Of a DNA stretch of 64,000 nucleotides, positions 53,838 to 64,000 are shown piece after piece. Source of the stretch: Modestobacter italicus (GTDB lineage Bacteria > Actinomycetota > Actinomycetes > Mycobacteriales > Geodermatophilaceae); contig NC_017955.1 of NCBI RefSeq assembly GCF_000306785.1, positions 2,852,001 to 2,916,000 of the forward strand, read 5' to 3'. The notes beneath the pieces are model-generated. The model did not search any database. It was given only the letters and a program-made list of their open reading frames with translations, and had not been told where the DNA came from. Positions within the stretch are counted from its first letter, which is position 1. Each line of letters starts with the position of its first letter. Position numbers and translations under genes: made by a program.

Positions 53838-54947
53838 TCAGTGCTCGTGGATGATCACGCCGCGGATGTTCTTGCCGTCCAACATGTCCTGGTAGCCCTG
53901 GTTGACCTCGTCGAGCTTGTAGGTCCGGGTGATCAGCTCGTCGAGCTTCAGGTCGCCGGTGCGGTACAGGCTCAGCAGGCGGGGCACGTCGAACAACGGG
54001 TTGCAGGCACCGAAGATGGCGCCCTGGATGCGGCGCTGGTAGCCGATCAGCATGCCGGGGTGCTCGTTGATCCAGCCGTTCCCGACGGCGGTCACGGTCA
54101 CCTGGCCGGTCTTCCCGACGATCTTCAGGGCGTCGGCGATGACCTCGTCGTGCAGCACGCCGACGGTGATGATCGCGTGGTCGGCGAGTTCGCCCCAGGT
54201 GACCGCGTCGACGAACGCGGCGGCCTCGGCCGCCGTGGCGAAGGTGTCCGTCGCGCCGAACTCGACGGCCTTCTCGCGCTTGAAGGCGACCGGGTCGACG
54301 ACGACCACGCGCTGGGCTCCGGCGAGGCGGGCACCCTGCACCGCGTTGCTCCCCACGCCGCCGGCGCCGAACACCACGACGGTCTCCCCCGCCCGGACGC
54401 CGGCGGCGTGCACGGCGCTGCCCCAGCCGGTCGGTACCCCGCAGCCGACCAGCGAGGCCACCTCGAAGGGGATGTCGTCGGGGATCGGGATGACGGAGTA
54501 CTCGCTGACGACGGCGTGCTCGGCGAAGGTGCCCAGCACGCAGAGGCCACCGAAGTCCTCACCGTTCTGGTGGAAGCGGAACGTCCCGTCGGGGAACTCA
54601 CCGGTGGAGGCGTTCTTGCCCTCGTCGCACAGGTTCTGGCGGGCGGTCGAGCAGTACCGGCACTTGCCGCAGGCGGGGATGAAGGAGCAGACCACGTGGT
54701 CGCCCACCTTCACCCGGGTGACGCCCTCGCCCACCGCGTCGACGATCCCGGCGCCCTCGTGGCCGCCGACCACGGGGAAGCGCATCTGCGCGTCGCCCTT
54801 CTGGATGTGGTCGTCGGAGTGGCAGAGACCGGCCGCCATGAACTTGATCCGGACCTCGTTGGCGCGCGGGTCGTCGAGCTCCAGCTCGGTGATCTCCCAC
54901 GGCCGACCCGGCTCGCGACAGACCGCGGCTCGCGTGGTCATGCTCAC
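53838..54947 (-). CDS. NDMA-dependent (mycofactocin-type) alcohol dehydrogenase 2
   Basis: This 369-residue enzyme is a paralogue of the one at 51080 and shares LCHSDDHIQKGDAQMRFP, CGKCRYCSTARQNLC and VGCGVPTGWGSAVHAAGV. The pair differ mostly in the middle of the cofactor domain and around the substrate pocket, so they may act on two different alcohols. It is the first gene of the operon. The upstream region is shared with the divergent CoA-transferase operon. Confidence 0.9.
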   Translation of the reverse strand: MSMTTRAAVCREPGRPWEITELELDDPRANEVRIKFMAAGLCHSDDHIQKGDAQMRFPVVGGHEGAGIVDAVGEGVTRVKVGDHVVCSFIPACGKCRYCSTARQNLCDEGKNASTGEFPDGTFRFHQNGEDFGGLCVLGTFAEHAVVSEYSVIPIPDDIPFEVASLVGCGVPTGWGSAVHAAGVRAGETVVVFGAGGVGSNAVQGARLAGAQRVVVVDPVAFKREKAVEFGATDTFATAAEAAAFVDAVTWGELADHAIITVGVLHDEVIADALKIVGKTGQVTVTAVGNGWINEHPGMLIGYQRRIQGAIFGACNPLFDVPRLLSLYRTGDLKLDELITRTYKLDEVNQGYQDMLDGKNIRGVIIHEH

Positions 54948-55265: not shown

Positions 55266-56015
55266 GTGATCGACAAGTTCCGTGAGGACGTGCTCTCCGT
55301 GGTGGACCGCGTCCACGACGGCGCCTCGATCGCCGTCGGCGGCTTCGGCAGCTCCGGCCGCCCGGACGTCCTCCTGGATGCGCTGTGCGAGCTGGACCGC
55401 CGCGACCTGCACGTCTACGTCAACAACGTCGGTCACGACTTCACCGGCGTCGGACGCCTCCTGCACGAGGGACGGCTGCGCCGCGTGACGGCCTCCTTCC
55501 CGATCCTGCAGGAGTTCTACGACGACTACTTCGCGGGGAAGGTCGAGCTGGAGCTGGTCCCGCAGGGGACGCTGGCCGAGCGGCTGCGCGCCGGCGGCTC
55601 GGGGATCCCGGCCTTCTTCACGCCGTCGGGCGCGGGCACCATGCTCGCCGACGGCTCCTTCACGCTGCGCTACTCCCCCGAGGGCGGGGTCGCCGAGCAC
55701 GTGCCGGCCAAGGAGCACCGGATGATCAACGGCCGGCAGTACGTCCTCGAGGAGGGCATCGTCGCCGACTTCGGCTTCGTGAAGGCGCACCGCGGGGACC
55801 GCAAGGGCAACCTGCGGTTCCGGCTCTCCGCCCGGAACTTCAACCCGCTGGCCGCGATGTCGGGACGGCACACCTTCGCCGAGGTGGAGCGCCTGGTCGA
55901 GGTCGACGCGCTGCACCCCGACGACGTCCACCTGCCCGGTGTCTTCGTGGACGACGTGCTGCTGGCCACCCGGGCCGCGGCCGACCAGCCACTGATGGAG
56001 AGGTCCGCGTCATGA
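55266..56015 (+). CDS. 3-oxoacid CoA-transferase subunit A (ScoA-like)
   Basis: This 249-residue protein is the A subunit of a heteromeric CoA-transferase, with DGASIAVGGFGSSGRPDVLL, LVPQGTLAERLRAGGSGIP, and ARNFNPLAAMSGRHTFAEVE. The family moves CoA from succinyl-CoA or a similar donor to a 3-oxo acid. GTG 55266 follows GAGAGGA. Its stop overlaps the B subunit start as ATGA. The context suggests activation of an organic acid made by the adjacent dehydrogenases. Confidence 0.9.
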   Translation: MIDKFREDVLSVVDRVHDGASIAVGGFGSSGRPDVLLDALCELDRRDLHVYVNNVGHDFTGVGRLLHEGRLRRVTASFPILQEFYDDYFAGKVELELVPQGTLAERLRAGGSGIPAFFTPSGAGTMLADGSFTLRYSPEGGVAEHVPAKEHRMINGRQYVLEEGIVADFGFVKAHRGDRKGNLRFRLSARNFNPLAAMSGRHTFAEVERLVEVDALHPDDVHLPGVFVDDVLLATRAAADQPLMERSAS

Positions 56016-56677
56016 CCGGCACACTGCCCACCGCCGAGGTCACCGGCCGGACCCGCGAGGGCATCGCCCAGCGGCTCGCGCAGGACCTCAAGGACGGCTA
56101 CGTCGTCAACCTCGGCGTCGGCATCCCGCTCTTCGTCCCCCTCTTCATCCCCGCGGACACCGAGGTGGTGCTGCACGCGGAGAACGGCGTGCTGGGCCTG
56201 GGCCCCGCGCCCGAGGGCGACGGCGACCCCGACCTGACCGACGCCGGCAAGCAGTCGATCACCCTGATGCCGGGCGCGGCGATCACCGACTCGGCGATGT
56301 CCTTCGCCATGATCCGCGGCGGGCACCTGGACGTCACCGTGCTCGGTGCCCTGCAGGTCTCGGCCGCCGGCGACCTCGCGAACTGGTACGTGCCCGGCAA
56401 GAGCCCGGCCGTCGGCGGGGCGATGGACCTCGTCGCCGGGACCCCGCAGGTCTGGGTGACGATGGAGCACGTCGACCGCCAGGGGCGACCCAAGGTCCTC
56501 CCGGAGTGCACGATGCCGCTGACCGGGCGGGCGTGCGTCACCCGCATCTACACCGACCTGGCCGTCTTCCACGTCGTGGACGGGACGTTGCGCCTCGTGG
56601 AGTGCGCGCCCGGGGTCACCCCGGACCAGGTGCGTGAACGCACCGCCGCCCCGTACACCGAGGACCTGCACCCGTGA
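56012..56677 (+). CDS. 3-oxoacid CoA-transferase subunit B (ScoB-like)
   Basis: This 221-residue B subunit carries the catalytic Glu in VVLHAENGVLGLGP (about residue 53) that forms the glutamyl-CoA thioester. GKQSITLMPGAAITDSAMSF and IRGGHLDVTVLGALQVS are conserved blocks. It forms an alpha-beta dimer with the A subunit encoded upstream. Start and stop overlap its neighbours (ATGA and GTGA). Its acyl partner is unknown; succinate or acetate is the usual one. Confidence 0.92.
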   Translation: MTGTLPTAEVTGRTREGIAQRLAQDLKDGYVVNLGVGIPLFVPLFIPADTEVVLHAENGVLGLGPAPEGDGDPDLTDAGKQSITLMPGAAITDSAMSFAMIRGGHLDVTVLGALQVSAAGDLANWYVPGKSPAVGGAMDLVAGTPQVWVTMEHVDRQGRPKVLPECTMPLTGRACVTRIYTDLAVFHVVDGTLRLVECAPGVTPDQVRERTAAPYTEDLHP

Positions 56678-57576
56678 CGGGGATCGACCTGTCCCGCATC
56701 ACCGCGATCGACGTGCACACCCACGTGCACCGGTCGGTCCACGCCCCGCCGCCCGAGGGGAGCACCGCCGACGACATGGGCGCGTACTTCGGCATCGGCT
56801 CGATGCCGCAGTACACGCTGCCGCAGCTGGCCGGGTACTACCGCGAGCGCAGCATGGCCTGCATCGCCTTCGGGGTGGACAGCATCTCGCAGACCGGTGA
56901 GGAGATGGTGCCCACCAACGAGGAGGTCGCCGAGCTCGCCGCGGAGCACTCCGACGTCGTCATCCCGTTCGCCAGCATCGACCCCGCGCGCGGGGCGGCC
57001 GGGGTGCGCGCCGCGCGCCGGCTGGTCACCGACCACGGCGTCCGGGGGTTCAAGTTCCACCCCAACACCCAGGGCTTCCACCCCAACGACCGGCTGGCCT
57101 ACCCGCTGTACGAGGTCATCGCCGAGCACGGGCTGATCGCGCTGTTCCACACCGGCCAGACCGGGGTCGGTGCCGGTACCCGGGGCGGCGGCGGGATCCG
57201 GCTGAAGTACTCCAACCCCATGGACGTCGACGACGTGGCCGTCGACTTCCCGGACATGGACATCATCCTGGCCCACCCGTCGTTCCCCTGGCAGGACGAG
57301 GCGCTGTCGGTGGCCACCCACAAGCCACGGGTGTACATCGACCTGTCCGGCTGGTCGCCGAAGTACTTCCCGCCGCAGCTCGTCCAGTACGCCAACTCGC
57401 TGTTGCGCGACAAGGTCCTCTTCGGCTCCGACTTCCCGGTGATCACGCCCGAGCGCTGGATGAAGGACTTCGCCGCCATCGGCATCAAGGACGAGGTCCG
57501 CCCCAAGATCATGAAGGACAACGCCGCGCGGTTGCTGGGGCTCTCCCCCGCGCCGGGCGAGGGAGCAGGGCACTGA
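56674..57576 (+). CDS. Amidohydrolase family 2 protein
   Basis: This 300-residue metal-dependent TIM barrel has DVHTHVH near the N terminus, LFHTGQTG and LAHPSFPW in the barrel, and VLFGSDFPV as the Asp motif. It belongs to the same superfamily as the protein at 48937 but is distinct in sequence. Possible reactions are C-C bond hydrolysis, decarboxylation or hydration of a carbonyl compound. The GTG overlaps the CoA-transferase B stop, so it is translationally coupled and probably in the same pathway. Confidence 0.88.
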   Translation: MTGIDLSRITAIDVHTHVHRSVHAPPPEGSTADDMGAYFGIGSMPQYTLPQLAGYYRERSMACIAFGVDSISQTGEEMVPTNEEVAELAAEHSDVVIPFASIDPARGAAGVRAARRLVTDHGVRGFKFHPNTQGFHPNDRLAYPLYEVIAEHGLIALFHTGQTGVGAGTRGGGGIRLKYSNPMDVDDVAVDFPDMDIILAHPSFPWQDEALSVATHKPRVYIDLSGWSPKYFPPQLVQYANSLLRDKVLFGSDFPVITPERWMKDFAAIGIKDEVRPKIMKDNAARLLGLSPAPGEGAGH

Positions 57577-58490
57577 TGAAGGACGTCGAGGGCAAGGTCG
57601 CGTTCGTCACCGGCGGGTCCAGCGGCATCGGCCGGGGCATCGCCCTGACCTTCGCGCAGGCGGGCATGCAGGTGGTCATCAGCGGCCGCAGGCAGGAGTT
57701 CATCGACGAGTCGCTGGCCGAGTTCGCCGCGGCCGGCGTCTCCGCGGACAGCATGACGCTCGACGTCACCGATGCCGCCGCCGTCGACGCGGCGGCGGCG
57801 GAGACCGTCCGGCGGCACGGCCGGCTCGACGTGCTGGTCAACAACGCCGGCATCGGACTGACCGGGCCGGTGATGGGCGCCACGGCCCGCGACTGGGACT
57901 GGCTGATCGACGTCAACATCCGGGGGGTCGGGAACGGCATCCGCTCCTTCGTGCCGCTCATCCAGGCCCAGGGCGAGGGCGGCCACGTGGTGAACACCTC
58001 GTCGATGGCCGGCCTGATGCCGATCGTGGCCGGGCTCTACAGCATGACCAAGGCCGCGGTCATCGCGTTGTCCGAGGCACTGGCCATCGAGCTGGCGCCC
58101 GAGGGCATCGGCGTCTCGGCGTACTGCCCCGGCCCCGTGCACAGCAACATCGCCGCCGGGGTGTCCGCCCGGCCCGAGGCCTACGGGGAGAGCGGCTACG
58201 CACCGCCGCCGGCGGAGTTCCTCGAGCGCGCCAAGCACCAGCCGTACATGAGCTACGTCGAGGCCGGTGAGCGGGTGCTGGCCGGCGTCCGGCGCAACGA
58301 CCTGTTCATCCTGACCCACCCGGAGTTCCGGGAGGGGGTCCGCGACCGGTTCGACACGACGCTGGCCGCCTTCCCGGACGAGCCGCTGGACGCCGAGCGC
58401 GCCGCCGCGATCCCGTTCCTCACCTCGCACCCGGTGTACGCGCCGGAGAACCGGCTGCCGTCGCCGCGGCTGGGCGACCCCGTCCACTGA
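57576..58490 (+). CDS. SDR family oxidoreductase
   Basis: This 304-residue short-chain dehydrogenase has TGGSSGIG, NNAG and catalytic Ser/Tyr/Lys in NTSSMAG and YSMTKAAV. Arg residues after the second strand (ISGRRQE) favour NADP. The C-terminal segment is about 50 residues longer than in classical SDRs. The ATG overlaps the preceding stop by one base (TGATG). It is the last gene of the operon and a strong hairpin follows ten bases after its stop. Confidence 0.88.
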   Translation: MKDVEGKVAFVTGGSSGIGRGIALTFAQAGMQVVISGRRQEFIDESLAEFAAAGVSADSMTLDVTDAAAVDAAAAETVRRHGRLDVLVNNAGIGLTGPVMGATARDWDWLIDVNIRGVGNGIRSFVPLIQAQGEGGHVVNTSSMAGLMPIVAGLYSMTKAAVIALSEALAIELAPEGIGVSAYCPGPVHSNIAAGVSARPEAYGESGYAPPPAEFLERAKHQPYMSYVEAGERVLAGVRRNDLFILTHPEFREGVRDRFDTTLAAFPDEPLDAERAAAIPFLTSHPVYAPENRLPSPRLGDPVH

Positions 58491-58536: not shown

Positions 58537-59469
58537 TCAGGGCGCCGGGGTCTCGTCCAGCGGGATGAGCGCGACCGGGCCGGCGAGGTCCTCGGGGGCG
58601 GCCGGGAAGTAGGCGAAGTTCTTGGCCCGGGCTCCCCCGTCGACGACGAGGTCGGTGCCGGTGATCAGGCGTGCGTAGTCCGAGCAGAGCCAGGCGACCG
58701 CGTGGCCGATGTCGGTCGGGGTGCCCGTCGAGCCCATCGGCACCAGCGGCGGCCGCTCCCCCGCCCAGCGGGCGGGACGGCGCCACTCCTCGTCGCCGGT
58801 GCCGCCGCCGAGGCCGCCGCCCGCGCGACCGGCGTTGAGCAGGTCCGCCGGTCGGCCCTGCGCCGCCAGCTGGGCCAGCAGCTCGGGGTTGTCGACGGTC
58901 GGCGCGGTCGGGGTGTAGCCGTTGACCCGGATGCCGTAGGGCGCGAGGTCCATCGCTGCCGCGCGGACGAAGTTGTTCACCCCGCCCTTGTGGAACGCGT
59001 AGGCGATCACGCCGGCCGAGCCGTTCCAGCCGTTGGACGACGACATGCAGACGATCGAGCCGCGGATCCCGCGCTGCGCCATCGCCCGCCCGACGTGCTT
59101 GGTGTTGAGGAAGTACCCGAGCCCGGCCACCCGCACGGCACGCTCGAAGTCCGCCGCGGTCTCGTCGAGGACCCCCCGGCCACCGAGGACCGCGGCGTTG
59201 TTGACCAGGATGTCGATCCGGCCCCACCGCTCGAGGACCGCGTCCACGTAGCCCTGGACCGCGGCCTCGTCGGTGACGTCCCCGGGGGCGGCCATCGCCT
59301 CGCCGCCGTTGCGTTCGATCCGGGAGATGCACGCCTCGATGACCGCGTCGTCGACGTCGTTGCAGGCCACCCTGGCGCCGTAGCGCGCCAGGGCGAGGGC
59401 CACCCCGCTGCCGATGTTGGGGCCGACCCCGGTGACGAGGGCGACCTTGCCCTCCAGCGAGACCTCCAC
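58537..59469 (-). CDS. SDR family oxidoreductase with internal insertion
   Basis: This 310-residue short-chain dehydrogenase has TGVGPNIGSG as its cofactor loop, NNAA, and an active-site SSSNGWNG / YAFHKGG pair. A Gly-rich insertion of about 35 residues (about 205-240, GGGLGGGTGDEEW) lies near the substrate lid, which is unusual. The GTG at 59469 is two bases after the stop of the 83-residue CxxC protein gene, so it is probably read as the fourth gene of the UGSC unit. No clear ribosome binding site precedes it. Confidence 0.85.
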   Translation of the reverse strand: MEVSLEGKVALVTGVGPNIGSGVALALARYGARVACNDVDDAVIEACISRIERNGGEAMAAPGDVTDEAAVQGYVDAVLERWGRIDILVNNAAVLGGRGVLDETAADFERAVRVAGLGYFLNTKHVGRAMAQRGIRGSIVCMSSSNGWNGSAGVIAYAFHKGGVNNFVRAAAMDLAPYGIRVNGYTPTAPTVDNPELLAQLAAQGRPADLLNAGRAGGGLGGGTGDEEWRRPARWAGERPPLVPMGSTGTPTDIGHAVAWLCSDYARLITGTDLVVDGGARAKNFAYFPAAPEDLAGPVALIPLDETPAP

Positions 59470-59471
59470 GC

Positions 59472-59723
59472 TCAGGAGGTCGTGACGTCGGCGCCGGGTC
59501 CGTCGGTCGGGTAGACCAGCCGGATGCTGGCCGGGTCGATGCCCAGCACCGGGCCGAGCATCGACTGCATGAGCGGCTTCGGCACGAGGCACTCCTCGCA
59601 GGCGTCCGGGCCGGCGACGATGGCCACGTCCGCGGAGTCGCCCCGGACGTCGACGTCCATCCGGTAGTCGTCGGCCTGCAGGGTCTGCTTCAACTGGTCC
59701 AACTGCTTCTCGTCGACGCTCAT
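59472..59723 (-). CDS. Small CxxC protein of the UGSC unit
   Basis: This 83-residue protein has a Cys-x-x-Cys pair at residues 42 and 45 (DACEECLVPKPLMQSML) and a predicted alpha/beta fold. The layout is faintly like a NifU C-terminal domain, but the match is too weak to name. Its ATG overlaps the stop of the 364-residue gene as ATGA. The Cys pair could bind metal or take part in thiol exchange with the UGSC protein. I do not recognise the family by name. Confidence 0.75.
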   Translation of the reverse strand: MSVDEKQLDQLKQTLQADDYRMDVDVRGDSADVAIVAGPDACEECLVPKPLMQSMLGPVLGIDPASIRLVYPTDGPGADVTTS

Positions 59724-60814
59724 GCGGGTGCCTCCTGGGGGTGGGTCGCGGTGTCGCGGGCGGGCGGGACGGGCACCGAGCGGCCGGACCACGTGGACCA
59801 ACCGAACGGGCGGAAGACCATCGAGATGGCGGCGTTGGCGGCGCCGGCGACGAGCACCGGGATCTCCGCGGCCGAGGGCATCATCGGGAACGGGTCGGGG
59901 CCGGGGTCCTGGTCGTGGGACTCCTTCCCCGCCGCGACCAGGTCTGCCTGGCGGCGGGTGGCGTGCTCGAAGAGCCACTGCTGGACGTCGGCCCGGCCGT
60001 AGCCGGCGGCGGCGAGGAACTGGGCGTGCTCGGGCCCGAACACCACACCGCCGGTGGAGTGCTTGATGCCGAGGTAGGCGCCGGTGCGCGCGAGGGTGTC
60101 CGCGACGTCCCAGAGCACCGCCTCCGCGCTCTCGGTGTGCCGGTTGTCGATGTACTCGCAGTCGCGGACGAGCAGCGCCGAGACCGCGTCCACCCCGGCC
60201 GCCACGCCTCCGGCCACGCTGAACGGCTCCCACGGGGAGAGCTCCTCGTGCTCACCGATGCACATGGTCCACCGCCCGGGGACCCCCTGGGTCGCCTGTT
60301 CCAGCTCCTGCGGACGGATGCCGTAGCCGTTGCGGACGATCAGGCCGAGCGCCCGGCCGATCGTGGCGTTGGCCCGGAAGCCGGGGCCGAACACGCCGCC
60401 GGCGTAGTTGATGCCCAGCCGGTCCCGGACCGGTCCGTTGACCACGAGCAACGGCGCGGGCCCGCTGGTCGACTGCCAGGCGCCGCCCCGGGAGGCCGGC
60501 TCGCCGTTCACCGCCTCCCAGGCGGCCAGCACCACGGGGAAGTACTCCGGCCGGCAGCCCGACATGACGGCGTTGACCGCGGCCTGCGCCACGGTGACCC
60601 GGCGGTTGAGGTGCGACTGGGCGCCGATGACCTCGTCGGGGTCGCGGGCGACGGTGGCCAGGAACTCGGCCACGTCGTCCTCGGTCGCCGGGACGACCGG
60701 CAGGCCGTCGCTCCAGCCGCGCTCGTAGCAGTACTCGATGGCGCCCCGGACGCCGCGGACCGGGTCGTCCGCGGTCCCGGCGCGCCCGTCGACCTGCGGC
60801 GGGGCCGCCGTCAT
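59720..60814 (-). CDS. Conserved protein of the UGSC unit, 364 residues
   Basis: This 364-residue protein has no clear membrane segments and no standard enzyme motif that I recognise. Notable segments are EYCYERGWSDGLPVVPAT near the N terminus, VMSGCRPEYFPVVLAAWEA, and NYAGGVFGPGFRANATIGRA. The Gly-rich middle could bind a nucleotide or flavin. Start and stop overlap its neighbours as ATGA on both sides. It probably forms a complex or acts in sequence with the UGSC-family protein encoded directly upstream. Function is unknown. Confidence 0.8.
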   Translation of the reverse strand: MTAAPPQVDGRAGTADDPVRGVRGAIEYCYERGWSDGLPVVPATEDDVAEFLATVARDPDEVIGAQSHLNRRVTVAQAAVNAVMSGCRPEYFPVVLAAWEAVNGEPASRGGAWQSTSGPAPLLVVNGPVRDRLGINYAGGVFGPGFRANATIGRALGLIVRNGYGIRPQELEQATQGVPGRWTMCIGEHEELSPWEPFSVAGGVAAGVDAVSALLVRDCEYIDNRHTESAEAVLWDVADTLARTGAYLGIKHSTGGVVFGPEHAQFLAAAGYGRADVQQWLFEHATRRQADLVAAGKESHDQDPGPDPFPMMPSAAEIPVLVAGAANAAISMVFRPFGWSTWSGRSVPVPPARDTATHPQEAPA

Positions 60815-61365
60815 GACCTGGCTGCCACGTTCGGTCCGCGCAGCAGCGCCACGATCTCCGGGACGGCCGCGGCCGCCCGGTCACGCACGCCCTGCCGGGA
60901 CAGGTTGGCCACCGGGTGCGGGGTGGTCACGTACTGGTAGCCCTCGGTGCCCTGCAGGGTGGCCATGGCGTCGGCGCTGACCCGGAAGGCGTCGCTGACG
61001 ATGACGACGGCGGGGATGCCCGCCTCCTCCAGCTGCAGGCCGTCGGCGACGGCCGAGGCGCTGCAGGAGCCGCAGTCGCCCACGCCCACGACGACGACGT
61101 CGCACGCGGCCCGCAGCTCCTCGAGCATGTCCGGCGGCGCAGGTTCGACGATGCTCGGCTTCTTCCGGATCAGCACCTTCTGCACCCCGTGCTGCGACTC
61201 GAGCAGCCCGGCGACCTCCTCGACGAAGTCCTCGGCGTTGCGCTTGGTGTTGGCCAGCAGTCCCAGGCGCAGACCGGAGAGGTCGCCCGGTCGGGGCGCG
61301 AGAGCGGTGCGACCACGTGCGTCGCCCGCCGGACCGACCGTGGGGTCGATGACGCTGTCGTACAC
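60811..61365 (-). CDS. UGSC family protein, cysteine form
   Basis: This 184-residue protein has the motif GVGDCGSCSAS at about residues 95-105. In the UGSC family the first Cys of this C-G-S-C block is selenocysteine in many bacteria. Here the codon at 61074-61072 is TGC, so Cys98 replaces it. An alternating strand/helix pattern and NTKRNAEDF near residue 39 suggest a Rossmann-like fold. The biochemical role of the family is not established. GTG 61365 follows GAGGAG. It leads a unit of four tightly coupled genes. Confidence 0.75.
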   Translation of the reverse strand: MYDSVIDPTVGPAGDARGRTALAPRPGDLSGLRLGLLANTKRNAEDFVEEVAGLLESQHGVQKVLIRKKPSIVEPAPPDMLEELRAACDVVVVGVGDCGSCSASAVADGLQLEEAGIPAVVIVSDAFRVSADAMATLQGTEGYQYVTTPHPVANLSRQGVRDRAAAAVPEIVALLRGPNVAARS

Positions 61366-61491: not shown

Positions 61492-62583
61492 TCACCGGCC
61501 CGGGTGGACGGAGACGTGGACGGCGGGCTCCCCCGGGCCCTCGCCGGCGAGGAGCTGGATCGCCGTCTCGGTGTCCTCCAGCGGCAGCGAGTGGGTGTGC
61601 ATCTGGGCGATCGGCGTGCGCCCGGACTCGATGATCCGGATCGCCTCGGCGTAGGCCGGTGAGTCCACCCCGTAGGCCCCGACCAGGGTGAGCGCCCGGT
61701 TGATGACGAAGTCCGTGTCGATCTCGGCCTTCCGCCCGCCCTTGAGGCCGGCGAGGACGACCCGCCCCCCGTGCCGGGCCGAGGCCAGCGCGTCCCCGAC
61801 CGGGCCGAGGGCCATCGGCGTGAGCTCCAGGACGACGTCCGCCCCCACCCCGCCGGTCAGCTCCAGGACCCGCGCCACGGTGTCCTCCTGGTCGACGACG
61901 ATCGTGTGGTCGGCGCCGAACTGCCGGGCCAGCGCCAGCTTGTGCTCGTCGGCGGCCAGCCCGGTCACGATCACGGTGGAGGCACCGGCGGCCTTGGCCG
62001 CGATGACCGCCGACAGGCCGCGCTGACCGGCCCCCAGCACGACGACGGTGCTGCCGATCCCGGCACCGCCGAGGTGCACCGCCCAACGGACACCGGCGGC
62101 GAGCGGGTTGAACATGACCGCGAGCTCCACCGGGAGGGCGCGGTCGATCGGGTGCACGATCGAGCCGGGCGCCAGGTAGGTGTACTCGGCCAGCCCGCCC
62201 CACAGCGAGGGCTGCTGGGTGATCGGGGTGTAGCCGTGGCTCGCCGCGCGCCGGGGGCACGCCTGGTACCGACCGGAGACGCAGGCCGGGCAGTGGTGGC
62301 AGGGCACCAGGATCTCCAGCGCCACCCGGTCACCGACCGAGACGCCCCAGCGTTCGGCGGCCTTGTCGCCGAGCTCCTCGATGATGCCCAGGGGCTCGTG
62401 GCCGGGCACCACGGCCGAGCCGCGGAACAGGTGCCCCTTGTACTGCTCGACGTCGCTGCCGCAGATCCCGTTCGCCTCGATCCGCAGCAGCCCGTCCTCC
62501 GGGCCGATGACCGGACGGGGGAACTCCCGCAGCTCGAGCGTCCGCGGCGCGGTCTGGACCACCGCCCGCACCATCTCGGCCAT
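61492..62583 (-). CDS. Zinc-dependent alcohol dehydrogenase (MDR family)
   Basis: This intact 363-residue enzyme is the close paralogue of the frameshifted copy at 49968. It has GICGSDVEQYKGH, GHEPLGIIEE, the Cys loop CHHCPACVSGRYQAC and the cofactor motif LGAGQRGLSAVIAAKAAG. VMFNPLAAGVRWA and LELTPMA are shared with the paralogue. NAD(P)-linked oxidation of a secondary alcohol is likely. ATG 62583 overlaps the stop of the SDR upstream by one base (TGATG). It ends the operon, and a hairpin follows. Confidence 0.9.
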   Translation of the reverse strand: MAEMVRAVVQTAPRTLELREFPRPVIGPEDGLLRIEANGICGSDVEQYKGHLFRGSAVVPGHEPLGIIEELGDKAAERWGVSVGDRVALEILVPCHHCPACVSGRYQACPRRAASHGYTPITQQPSLWGGLAEYTYLAPGSIVHPIDRALPVELAVMFNPLAAGVRWAVHLGGAGIGSTVVVLGAGQRGLSAVIAAKAAGASTVIVTGLAADEHKLALARQFGADHTIVVDQEDTVARVLELTGGVGADVVLELTPMALGPVGDALASARHGGRVVLAGLKGGRKAEIDTDFVINRALTLVGAYGVDSPAYAEAIRIIESGRTPIAQMHTHSLPLEDTETAIQLLAGEGPGEPAVHVSVHPGR

Positions 62584-63476
62584 CAGCGTGCGGTCCCGGC
62601 CTCGGCCGGCTGCGGTGCCTGGGCCGGCGGTGGCTCGGGGCGACGCAGCGGGAACGGGCTCAGCCCACCGCCGTCGATCGGGATGGCCTGCGCCGTGATG
62701 TAGGCGGCCTCCGGGGAGGCGAGGAAGGCGACCGCGGCGGCGATGTCCTCGGCCGCGCCGGCCCGCCCGACCGGGATGTTGCGGCCGCGCTGCTCCATCA
62801 GTGCCGCCTCGTCGACGTCCGGGCCCGAGCTCAGGAACGCCCGGCTGGTGGCGACCAGCCCGGGGCAGAGCGCGTTGACGGTGATCCCCCACGGGCCCAG
62901 GTCCATGGCCAGCGCCCGGGTCATGCCGATGACACCGGCCTTGGACGCCGAGTACGGGCCGGAGAACGGGGCGGCCGTCAGCCCGGCCATCGACGAGATG
63001 TTCACGATCCGGCCCGCGCGCTGCGCGCGCATGACCGGCACCGCGGCCACGCACATCAGCCAGGGCCCGCGGAGGTTGACCGCGATGACCCGGTCGAAGA
63101 CCTCGGCCGGGATGTCGGCGACGTCCGCCCGGTCCGGACCCTGCGGAGCGGCCGCGTTGTTGACCAGGACGTCGAGCCGGCCGAAGTGCTCGACCGCCTC
63201 GGCGACCATCCGGTCAGCGTCGGCCTCGACGGCGACGTCACCGAGCGAGGCGACCGCCGTCCCGCCCCCGGCCGTGATGTCGGCGACGAGCGCCTCGACC
63301 CCGCCCCAGCCGGCGGACCGGCCCTCCTGCTGCCGGTTCGGCACCCCGGTGGCCTGCAGGTCGGTGACCACGACGGCCAGGCCCTGGCCGGCGAGCCGGC
63401 GGGCGATCGCCTGCCCCATCCCGTCGGGCTTGCCGCAGCCGGTGACCAGCGCGACCCGGTCCGCGGCGGCGGTCAC
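62583..63476 (-). CDS. SDR family oxidoreductase with cofactor-loop insertion
   Basis: This 297-residue short-chain dehydrogenase has TGCGKPDGMGQAIARRL as the cofactor loop, NNAA, and the active-site ISSMAG / YSASKAGV. After the second strand (VVVTD) there is an insertion of about 15-20 residues (PNRQQEGRSAGWGG). Insertions here are known from mycofactocin-coupled SDRs, in which NAD is not exchanged. That reading is tentative. The last 25 residues are Pro/Ala rich. The GTG overlaps the stop of the next SDR as GTGA. Confidence 0.85.
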   Translation of the reverse strand: MTAAADRVALVTGCGKPDGMGQAIARRLAGQGLAVVVTDLQATGVPNRQQEGRSAGWGGVEALVADITAGGGTAVASLGDVAVEADADRMVAEAVEHFGRLDVLVNNAAAPQGPDRADVADIPAEVFDRVIAVNLRGPWLMCVAAVPVMRAQRAGRIVNISSMAGLTAAPFSGPYSASKAGVIGMTRALAMDLGPWGITVNALCPGLVATSRAFLSSGPDVDEAALMEQRGRNIPVGRAGAAEDIAAAVAFLASPEAAYITAQAIPIDGGGLSPFPLRRPEPPPAQAPQPAEAGTAR

Positions 63477-64000
63477 GCGTGCACCGCCGGGGCGCCCTCG
63501 GGCGTCGTGGTCTCCAGCACCGTCGTCACCGGCGCAGCGGCCGAGGCGGCCGGCTTGGGTGCGCGCCCGGTGTTCGGCCCGCCGTCGACGGACAGGATCT
63601 GCCCGGAGATCCAGCGGGCCCGGTCGCTGGCCAGGAACAGGGTGGCCTGGGCGATGTCCCAGGGGCTGCCCTCGGTGCCCAGGGCCGACCAGCCCTTGCG
63701 GACCTCCCGCATCTCCTCCGACATGTTGGCCGCGGCGAAGGCCCCCCAGATGGCACCCACCTGCACGCAGTTCACCCGGACGCCGCGCTCCCCCAGCGTG
63801 TTGGCCGCGCCGATGGTGAGGTTCTCCAGGCCCGCCTTGGCGAGGTTGTAGACCATCGCCGGCCCGCGGGCACGCACCCCGACCGAGCTGATGTTCACGA
63901 TCGCGCCGCCCGCCGGCAGCACCTCGACGGCGTGCCGGGTCATCTGCCAGGCGGTGGTCAGGTTCAGGTCCATCAGCTGGTGGAACCGCTCGGGGGTCAC
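63473..64000 (-). CDS. SDR family oxidoreductase, 5' end beyond window
   Basis: About 175 C-terminal residues of a short-chain dehydrogenase are visible; the cofactor-binding N terminus lies past base 64000. The active-site region reads NISSVGVRARGPAMVYNLAKAG, with Ser, Tyr and Lys. The substrate lid follows (VGAIWGAFAAANMSEEMR), then WISGQILSVDGGPNTG, the common C-terminal block. A Pro/Ala tail of about 30 residues follows. It is upstream of and coupled to the SDR at 62583. Confidence 0.88.
   Translation of the reverse strand: MTPERFHQLMDLNLTTAWQMTRHAVEVLPAGGAIVNISSVGVRARGPAMVYNLAKAGLENLTIGAANTLGERGVRVNCVQVGAIWGAFAAANMSEEMREVRKGWSALGTEGSPWDIAQATLFLASDRARWISGQILSVDGGPNTGRAPKPAASAAAPVTTVLETTTPEGAPAVHA

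Follow-up and report, generated by a model that had tools for sequence, protein, structure and literature searches.

What do four closely packed genes near the end of a stretch of the Modestobacter italicus chromosome encode, and which of them belong together? The stretch, called the window here, comprises 64,000 nucleotides of contig NC_017955.1 (G000:C1:2852001-2916000; the genome measures 5.58 Mb). On its minus strand, a gene for a protein of the UGSC family is followed by genes for a 364-residue protein (P364), an 83-residue protein with a C-x-x-C motif (P83) and a short-chain dehydrogenase (SDR). The original prediction, made from the letters alone, joined all four into a redox complex of fixed stoichiometry. 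Comparison with other genomes gives a narrower answer: the conserved core is the pair of UGSC (PF24696) and P364, which is kept together across many bacterial phyla. It appears to be a new enzyme for compound breakdown that relies on a thiol or on selenium. The four genes are as follows.

60811..61365, minus strand: UGSC_1, UGSC-family protein in its cysteine (Cys) form, 184 amino acids, C98-G-S-C101; selenocysteine (Sec)/Cys domain like that of GrdB and PrdB; PF24696/NF041046.
59720..60814, minus strand: P364_1, 364 amino acids, unnamed partner subunit, represented by a 60-member alignment and an AlphaFold2 (AF2) model.
59472..59723, minus strand: P83, 83 amino acids, C42-x-x-C45, small CxxC protein and putative electron donor to UGSC.
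58537..59469, minus strand: SDR_end, 310 amino acids, GTG start, PF13561/PF00106, a pathway enzyme rather than a complex subunit.

The genes lie where they were first placed, with spacings of -4, -4 and +2 bases (ATGA, ATGA and two bases). UGSC_1 is a member of the UGSC family above both curated cut-offs (PF24696: E=7e-64, 215.5 bits, cut-off 25; NF041046: 180.3 bits, cut-off 125), and its C98-G-S-C101 is the Cys form of the (U/C)-G-S-C motif, as originally read. P364_1 and P83 have zero Pfam or NCBIfam matches at E<=0.1. Three congeneric genomes (L207, L208 and L209) retain all four genes with identities of 77-98%, and the genes recur in Geodermatophilus sabuli (P364 77%, P83 88%, SDR 88% and UGSC 73%, the last cut by the locus end). 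The four genes are therefore real.

The pairing of UGSC with P364 was followed in two samples. A profile scan of named genomes with P364 gave at least 570 matching stretches, of which the best 80 loci, from about nine bacterial phyla by record titles, were kept. Among these, a UGSC gene lies on the same strand within 1 kb for 82 of 92 P364 matches. The order within the pair is variable, with P364 first in 43 cases and UGSC first in 39. In a separate phylum sample, UGSC exceeds the Pfam cut-off in 21 of 292 genomes, with two more below it, while P364 occurs in 23 of 296; all 21 UGSC genomes are among those 23, co-occurrence being counted per genome. Beyond the 21, P364 occurs in G183 and G294, and UGSC adjoins it in G294. 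UGSC was also present in the short flanks of 26 of the 28 P364 loci fetched from this sample, one of them (L030) Cys-less; L027 and L029 were without it. L029 holds a tandem of two P364 domains in one 663-residue frame (L029:157-2148) and has no UGSC in its short locus. The neighbourhood survey suggested with the original prediction thus bears out P364 as a partner of UGSC across phyla, which is not the case for P83 (see below).

The fusion survey suggested alongside it was likewise rewarded. UGSC and P364 are fused in seven loci: four within the 80 (L092, L093, L094 and L113), L031, L030 and a Sporomusa locus (L189). In addition, a P83-like domain stands in frame at the UGSC C-terminus in L089 (E 1e-6) and in Arthrobacter L187 (E 7e-5). 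One betaproteobacterial contig packs four genes of each kind, P364 and UGSC, into 16 kb (L093:5015-20697).

The residue at position 98 is most often Sec. In the 80 scorable UGSC partners of the named loci it is encoded by TGA in 61, by TAG in one and as Cys in 18; the 28 UGSC genes of the phylum sample, the own genome included, have 21 TGA, one TAG and six Cys codons. C98 of the window protein aligns with the Sec of its relatives. On a tree of 91 rows (65 TGA, 2 TAG and 24 Cys), the states of residue 98 need seven changes compared to a mean of 23.1 after shuffling, and the window copy belongs to a Cys clade of 16 rows with Sec forms among its neighbours. Every one of 75 aligned UGSC rows has both C98 (Sec counted as Cys) and C101; these rows are profile hits, with the Cys-less fusions left out. 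Of 17 genomes that have TGA forms, 16 carry the Sec elongation factor SelB over its cut-off, and so do the own genome and G183. No SelB reached the cut-off in the three Cys-only genomes (G150, G102 and G294) or in G136, whose UGSC is Cys-less. Folding of the 48 bases from the codon onward, scored against shuffles, gave a median z of -1.45 in TGA genes (n=84) vs. -0.58 in Cys genes (n=25), with a p of 1.6e-4 that is only a guide because the rows are related.

The own genome contains both forms. Decoding of UAG as Sec in Geodermatophilaceae was reportedly described by Mukai et al. 2016. Both UGSC copies of the window operon are Cys forms, and a third copy elsewhere (L009:10693-11223; G000:C1:4142702-4143208) has an in-frame TAG at residue 98. 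The genome also has a tRNA-Sec with anticodon CUA (L038:1501-1594, labelled tRNA-Pyl by ARAGORN) and a SelB match at C1:1726945, and the flanks of the third copy resemble selD and selA by eye. The third copy and the CUA tRNA-Sec fit the UAG-decoded Sec of this bacterial family, which is already in print with UGSC-motif proteins included (PMC5330540); the copies of the window operon differ from it in being Cys forms. A UGSC gene of G. ruber (L061) has TAG at the Sec position too. On the plasmid pFER4 of Paracoccus ferrooxidans (L192, CP038202.1), a Sec-form UGSC-P364 pair has selA and selB within about 8 kb, and the annotation splits its UGSC at the TGA into two hypothetical proteins.

The glycine and D-proline reductases are among the nearest described systems. 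Aligned with hhalign against a joint profile of the GrdB/PrdB Sec domain, columns 86-184 of the UGSC profile gave a probability of 94.7, with an E-value of 5.7e-8 that refers to a single comparison rather than a database; one reversed and eight shuffled controls reached at most 0.6. The probability was 83.3 against PrdB-type rows alone and 75.8 against GrdB rows alone. UGSC is thus a remote homolog of this Sec domain. Residue 98 stands in register with the Sec of both proteins, and C101 matches the second Cys of the PrdB-type Sec-x-x-C motif, while GrdB rows have no Cys there. However, UGSC_1 scores far below the TIGR04483 cut-off (17 vs. 300 bits), and PF07355 has no match in the own genome. 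The partners differ as well. GrdE and PrdA carry a pyruvoyl group, and P364 shows no kinship to the subunit of GrdE type (hhalign probability 0.1; no Pfam match; PF09338 was not looked for in the own genome). In the same comparison, P364 was also unrelated to GRDB/PrdB and to UGSC itself.

In the passages of four papers that deal with UGSC, the protein is treated alone save for one note of a fusion, and P364, P83 and a link to thioredoxin go without mention (PMC2398784, PMC13188914, PMC9312934 and PMC5330540). The fusion note, in the relevant part of the 2008 Global Ocean Sampling selenoproteome paper, places UGSC next to an unnamed conserved domain, "UGSC/Unknown_1" (PMC2398784), which resembles the fusions seen here; Unknown_1 may be P364. 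A thioredoxin-like fold for UGSC is supposed there (PMC2398784), and it was rejected on the model of the natural L094 fusion: strands and helices alternate, the motif follows a later strand (E90-96), and no thioredoxin is among the best 50 of 1688 structural matches in the PDB. The statement that the unit has no known role still stands, as no functional study of UGSC was found in the open-licence literature, subscription papers lying mostly outside it.

Despite the at least 570 matching stretches given above, P364 has no Pfam or NCBIfam model; 60 of 60 members lack a match at E<=0.01. Fourteen positions are invariant in 60 rows (D36, G37, P39, A79, M84, G86, P93, G127, R154, L158, N162, E188, W195 and G324), and two more nearly so (C87 in 59 and C185 in 55). 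AF2 modelled the window protein with a mean local confidence (pLDDT) of 90.5 and a global score (pTM) of 0.90, and Foldseek found zero PDB matches for the model at E<=0.001. Class I fumarase and cyclic-amide hydrolase were considered as kin and rejected (E 0.02 and up, query TM at most 0.24), as was GrdE on its hhalign probability. The profiles of P364 and of UGSC were also run against PDB sequences, with no useful match (best E 0.31 and 0.02, respectively). The L094 fusion was modelled with pLDDT 92 and pTM 0.92 over 557 residues, scores that would be hard to reach unless the two-domain arrangement were predicted with confidence; its alignment is imperfect, with about 62% of the residues of separate UGSC rows in the UGSC part and a UGSC end resting mostly on three fused rows. 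In this model, residue 98 sits between strand 90-96 and helix 99-114. Foldseek gave nine matches at E<=0.001 for the fusion, a mixed set in which every match is weak (query TM no higher than 0.20).

P83 is a third part, limited to certain lineages. Its relatives occur in 12 of the best 80 named loci, and SDR_end is a common catabolic neighbour, context rather than a constant partner. The proposed complex of all four proteins in fixed stoichiometry therefore finds no support as worded, and the ATGA overlaps imply translational coupling, not stoichiometry. Where P83 is present, it keeps close to P364: 11 of the 12 relatives start within about 50 bases after it, six with the same 4-base overlap. 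L026 and L027 also hold stand-alone matches, of weaker score. D18, C42, C45 and P48 are invariant in 16 rows. P83 may resemble the NifU-like domain PF01106 (best E 0.052; two of 16 members matched, the window protein not among them); a motif search of three NifU loci gave no hit.

A possible source of electrons is seen on plasmids. Among annotated plasmids, whose PLSDB gene tables are incomplete, 24 records match P364, of which eight were chosen and read. Thioredoxin-system genes are nearby in three of the eight loci: Arthrobacter has trxB-trxA-P364-UGSC/P83, Roseovarius has P364-UGSC-trxB, and in Variovorax trxB is the third gene upstream of P364. A phosphosulfolactate synthase annotation near the pair was noted in Natrinema (L186) and Arthrobacter (L187), and a weak relative of the Arthrobacter one adjoins the pair in L094.

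The unit in the window forms the 3' end of a ten-gene minus-strand operon that extends beyond the window end. In transcription order, the genes are ADH_2, UGSC_2, P364_2, SDR_a, SDR_b, ADH_1, UGSC_1, P364_1, P83 and SDR_end (ADH, alcohol dehydrogenase), with gaps of -1, -4, -4, -4, -1, 126, -4, -4 and +2 bases; the 126-base gap between ADH_1 and UGSC_1 may hold an internal promoter. UGSC_2 and P364_2 are a second pair in the same operon, outside the window (G000:C1:2916417-2918008). The further genes inside it are the following.

61492..62583, minus strand: ADH_1, zinc-type alcohol dehydrogenase, not of the N,N-dimethyl-4-nitrosoaniline (NDMA) type (107.6 bits); same operon, 126 bases from UGSC_1.
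62583..63476, minus strand: SDR_b, short-chain dehydrogenase, same operon.
63473..64000, minus strand: SDR_a, cut by the window end; the upstream operon part is P364_2, UGSC_2 and the NDMA-type ADH_2.
57576..58490, plus strand: SDR_plus, island gene on the converging strand.
56674..57576, plus strand: amidohydrolase (Amidohydro_2).
56012..56677, plus strand: 3-oxoacid CoA-transferase subunit B (TIGR02428, 286.4 bits).
55266..56015, plus strand: 3-oxoacid CoA-transferase subunit A (TIGR02429, 243.6 bits).
53838..54947, minus strand: ADH_3, NDMA-dependent (mycofactocin-type) alcohol dehydrogenase (TIGR03989, 524 bits).

The island was originally said to hold NDMA-dependent dehydrogenases and a CoA-transferase. 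This is correct for the A/B pair of the transferase and for two dehydrogenases over the TIGR03989 cut-off of 440 (508.9 and 524 bits), namely ADH_2 past the window end and ADH_3 inside; the adjoining ADH_1, however, is not of this type. An IclR regulator, a MaoC protein, an acyl-CoA ligase and a thioredoxin reductase (TIGR01292, 399.5 bits), one of two TrxB proteins over the cut-off in the genome, are also found in the island. It is complete in the congeneric L207 and largely kept in L208 and L209. G. sabuli (L047) and G. ruber (L050) have parts of it, as does a Streptosporangiaceae metagenome-assembled genome (L052), in which P83 was not found. P364 is present in five of 23 genomes of the genus, and the family is therefore accessory there.

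Other pairs have other neighbours. The third own pair adjoins an NMT1-type ATP-binding cassette importer and a luciferase-like monooxygenase. Elsewhere, the neighbour clusters include TctC receptors, CaiB transferases, F420-type luciferase-like monooxygenase proteins, IlvD and thiamine pyrophosphate enzymes, in counts that are rough because the clustering was based on longest open reading frames. Organosulfur compounds, dicarboxylic acids and steroid-like compounds were each considered as substrates and dropped. No substrate is named, because no neighbour is constant enough.

How might such a pair work? P364 would bind the substrate, and UGSC would supply a nucleophilic thiol(ate) or selenol(ate), with residue 98 opening a helix and C101 as the resolving thiol. 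Residue 98 would attack the bound substrate, most likely at an activated carbon or reducible bond adjacent to a carbonyl or carboxyl group. The reduced product would then leave, and a bond between residues 98 and 101 would remain, a disulfide or, in Sec forms, a selenenylsulfide. This bond would be reduced again by thioredoxin and thioredoxin reductase or, in the window lineage, with the help of P83. Paralogous pairs may be tuned to different substrates through P364 and placed in different catabolic operons. The two pairs of the window operon may serve steps of one pathway, beside the IclR regulator, the NDMA-type alcohol dehydrogenases, the SDRs, the amidohydrolase, the CoA-transferase, MaoC and the acyl-CoA ligase. 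We consider the chances evenly balanced that UGSC and P364 form a two-subunit thiol or selenol enzyme, probably a reductase, in this catabolic island.

Several observations weigh against it. Ten of the 92 P364 matches in the best 80 named loci have no same-strand UGSC within 1 kb; they lie in L063, L079, L083, L088 (where UGSC is on the other strand), L093 (one of four), L098, L111 (two, of which one is a short fragment of the C-terminus) and L114 (two). The three loci with Poribacteria in their titles (L079, L083 and L098) are all among these, and they carry P364 with no UGSC in the stretch; the match stops near profile position 285 in L079 and L098. Haladaptatus L193 likewise has P364 and no UGSC in its stretch. 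The correlation between the pairwise distances of P364 and UGSC (r=0.90 over 70 pairs, maximum 0.12 in 2000 permutations) favours the pair but is in part due to shared descent, and only three loci hold two pairs, too few for a look at partner swaps. One TGA genome, G036 (94% complete), has no SelB over the cut-off, and the own TAG gene has no extra fold stability after its codon (z 0.05), the other TAG gene having a z of -2.26. Thioredoxin genes are lacking in five of the eight plasmid loci (Paracoccus, Natrinema, Acidovorax, Sporomusa and Haladaptatus). In 82 chromosomal stretches, trxB occurs in three (L007, L051 and L059, the own included), several genes away, and trxA in two (L059 and L074), in neither case adjoining the pair. 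Finally, two UGSC-P364 fusions have lost both motif Cys residues and read D-M-G-T-S-S: L189:8314-10038 on a Sporomusa termitida plasmid, where an aconitase X gene lies about 2 kb upstream of the fusion, and L030:778-2529 in G136. At least one branch therefore works without thiols, and this branch speaks against a purely redox role. The claim that the first Cys is probably a catalytic redox residue is accordingly upheld as to its interchange with Sec, and is weakened by these Cys-less forms.

The same fusions leave room for a non-redox enzyme, in which P364 has its own active site (D36, R154, N162, E188 and W195) for a hydrolysis, lyase or isomerase reaction, and residue 98 is a covalent nucleophile or a regulatory switch that thioredoxin merely keeps reduced. 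The many invariant polar residues of P364 and its occurrence without a nearby UGSC, in Poribacteria among others, fit this idea. However, most scored partners keep Sec (61 TGA and one TAG of 80), and C98 and C101 are in every one of the 75 aligned rows that are profile hits, the Cys-less fusions being left out, so that we consider this alternative rather unlikely. A C-x-x-C thiol motif and the linkage to trxA or trxB in some loci could also belong to a thiol peroxidase or a repair system, shielding the pathway without converting its substrate. This is improbable, since one genome or contig can hold several paralogous pairs, those of the own genome lying in differing catabolic or transport settings, and a general protectant would hardly need a 364-residue partner for each pathway. 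It is just as improbable that the two proteins form no complex and are co-transcribed enzymes of one pathway that act independently. Many genes of the island overlap, and the ATGA junctions are therefore not special here, but the seven fusions stand against independent action, as does the persistence of the pair in about nine phyla amid changing neighbours.

More tentatively, and with less assurance than for the pair in this island, UGSC and P364, with or without P83, may represent an undescribed two- or three-component class of Sec/Cys reductases, in which a nucleophile domain of the glycine/proline-reductase type is combined with the new fold of P364. Such enzymes would perform substrate-specific reductive steps of catabolism in bacteria and haloarchaea, of which many are presumably aerobic. 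With a partner that matches no solved fold, a candidate electron donor and a setting in catabolic operons, the question can now be tested, and the Cys forms in the window should allow the enzyme to be produced without selenium machinery.

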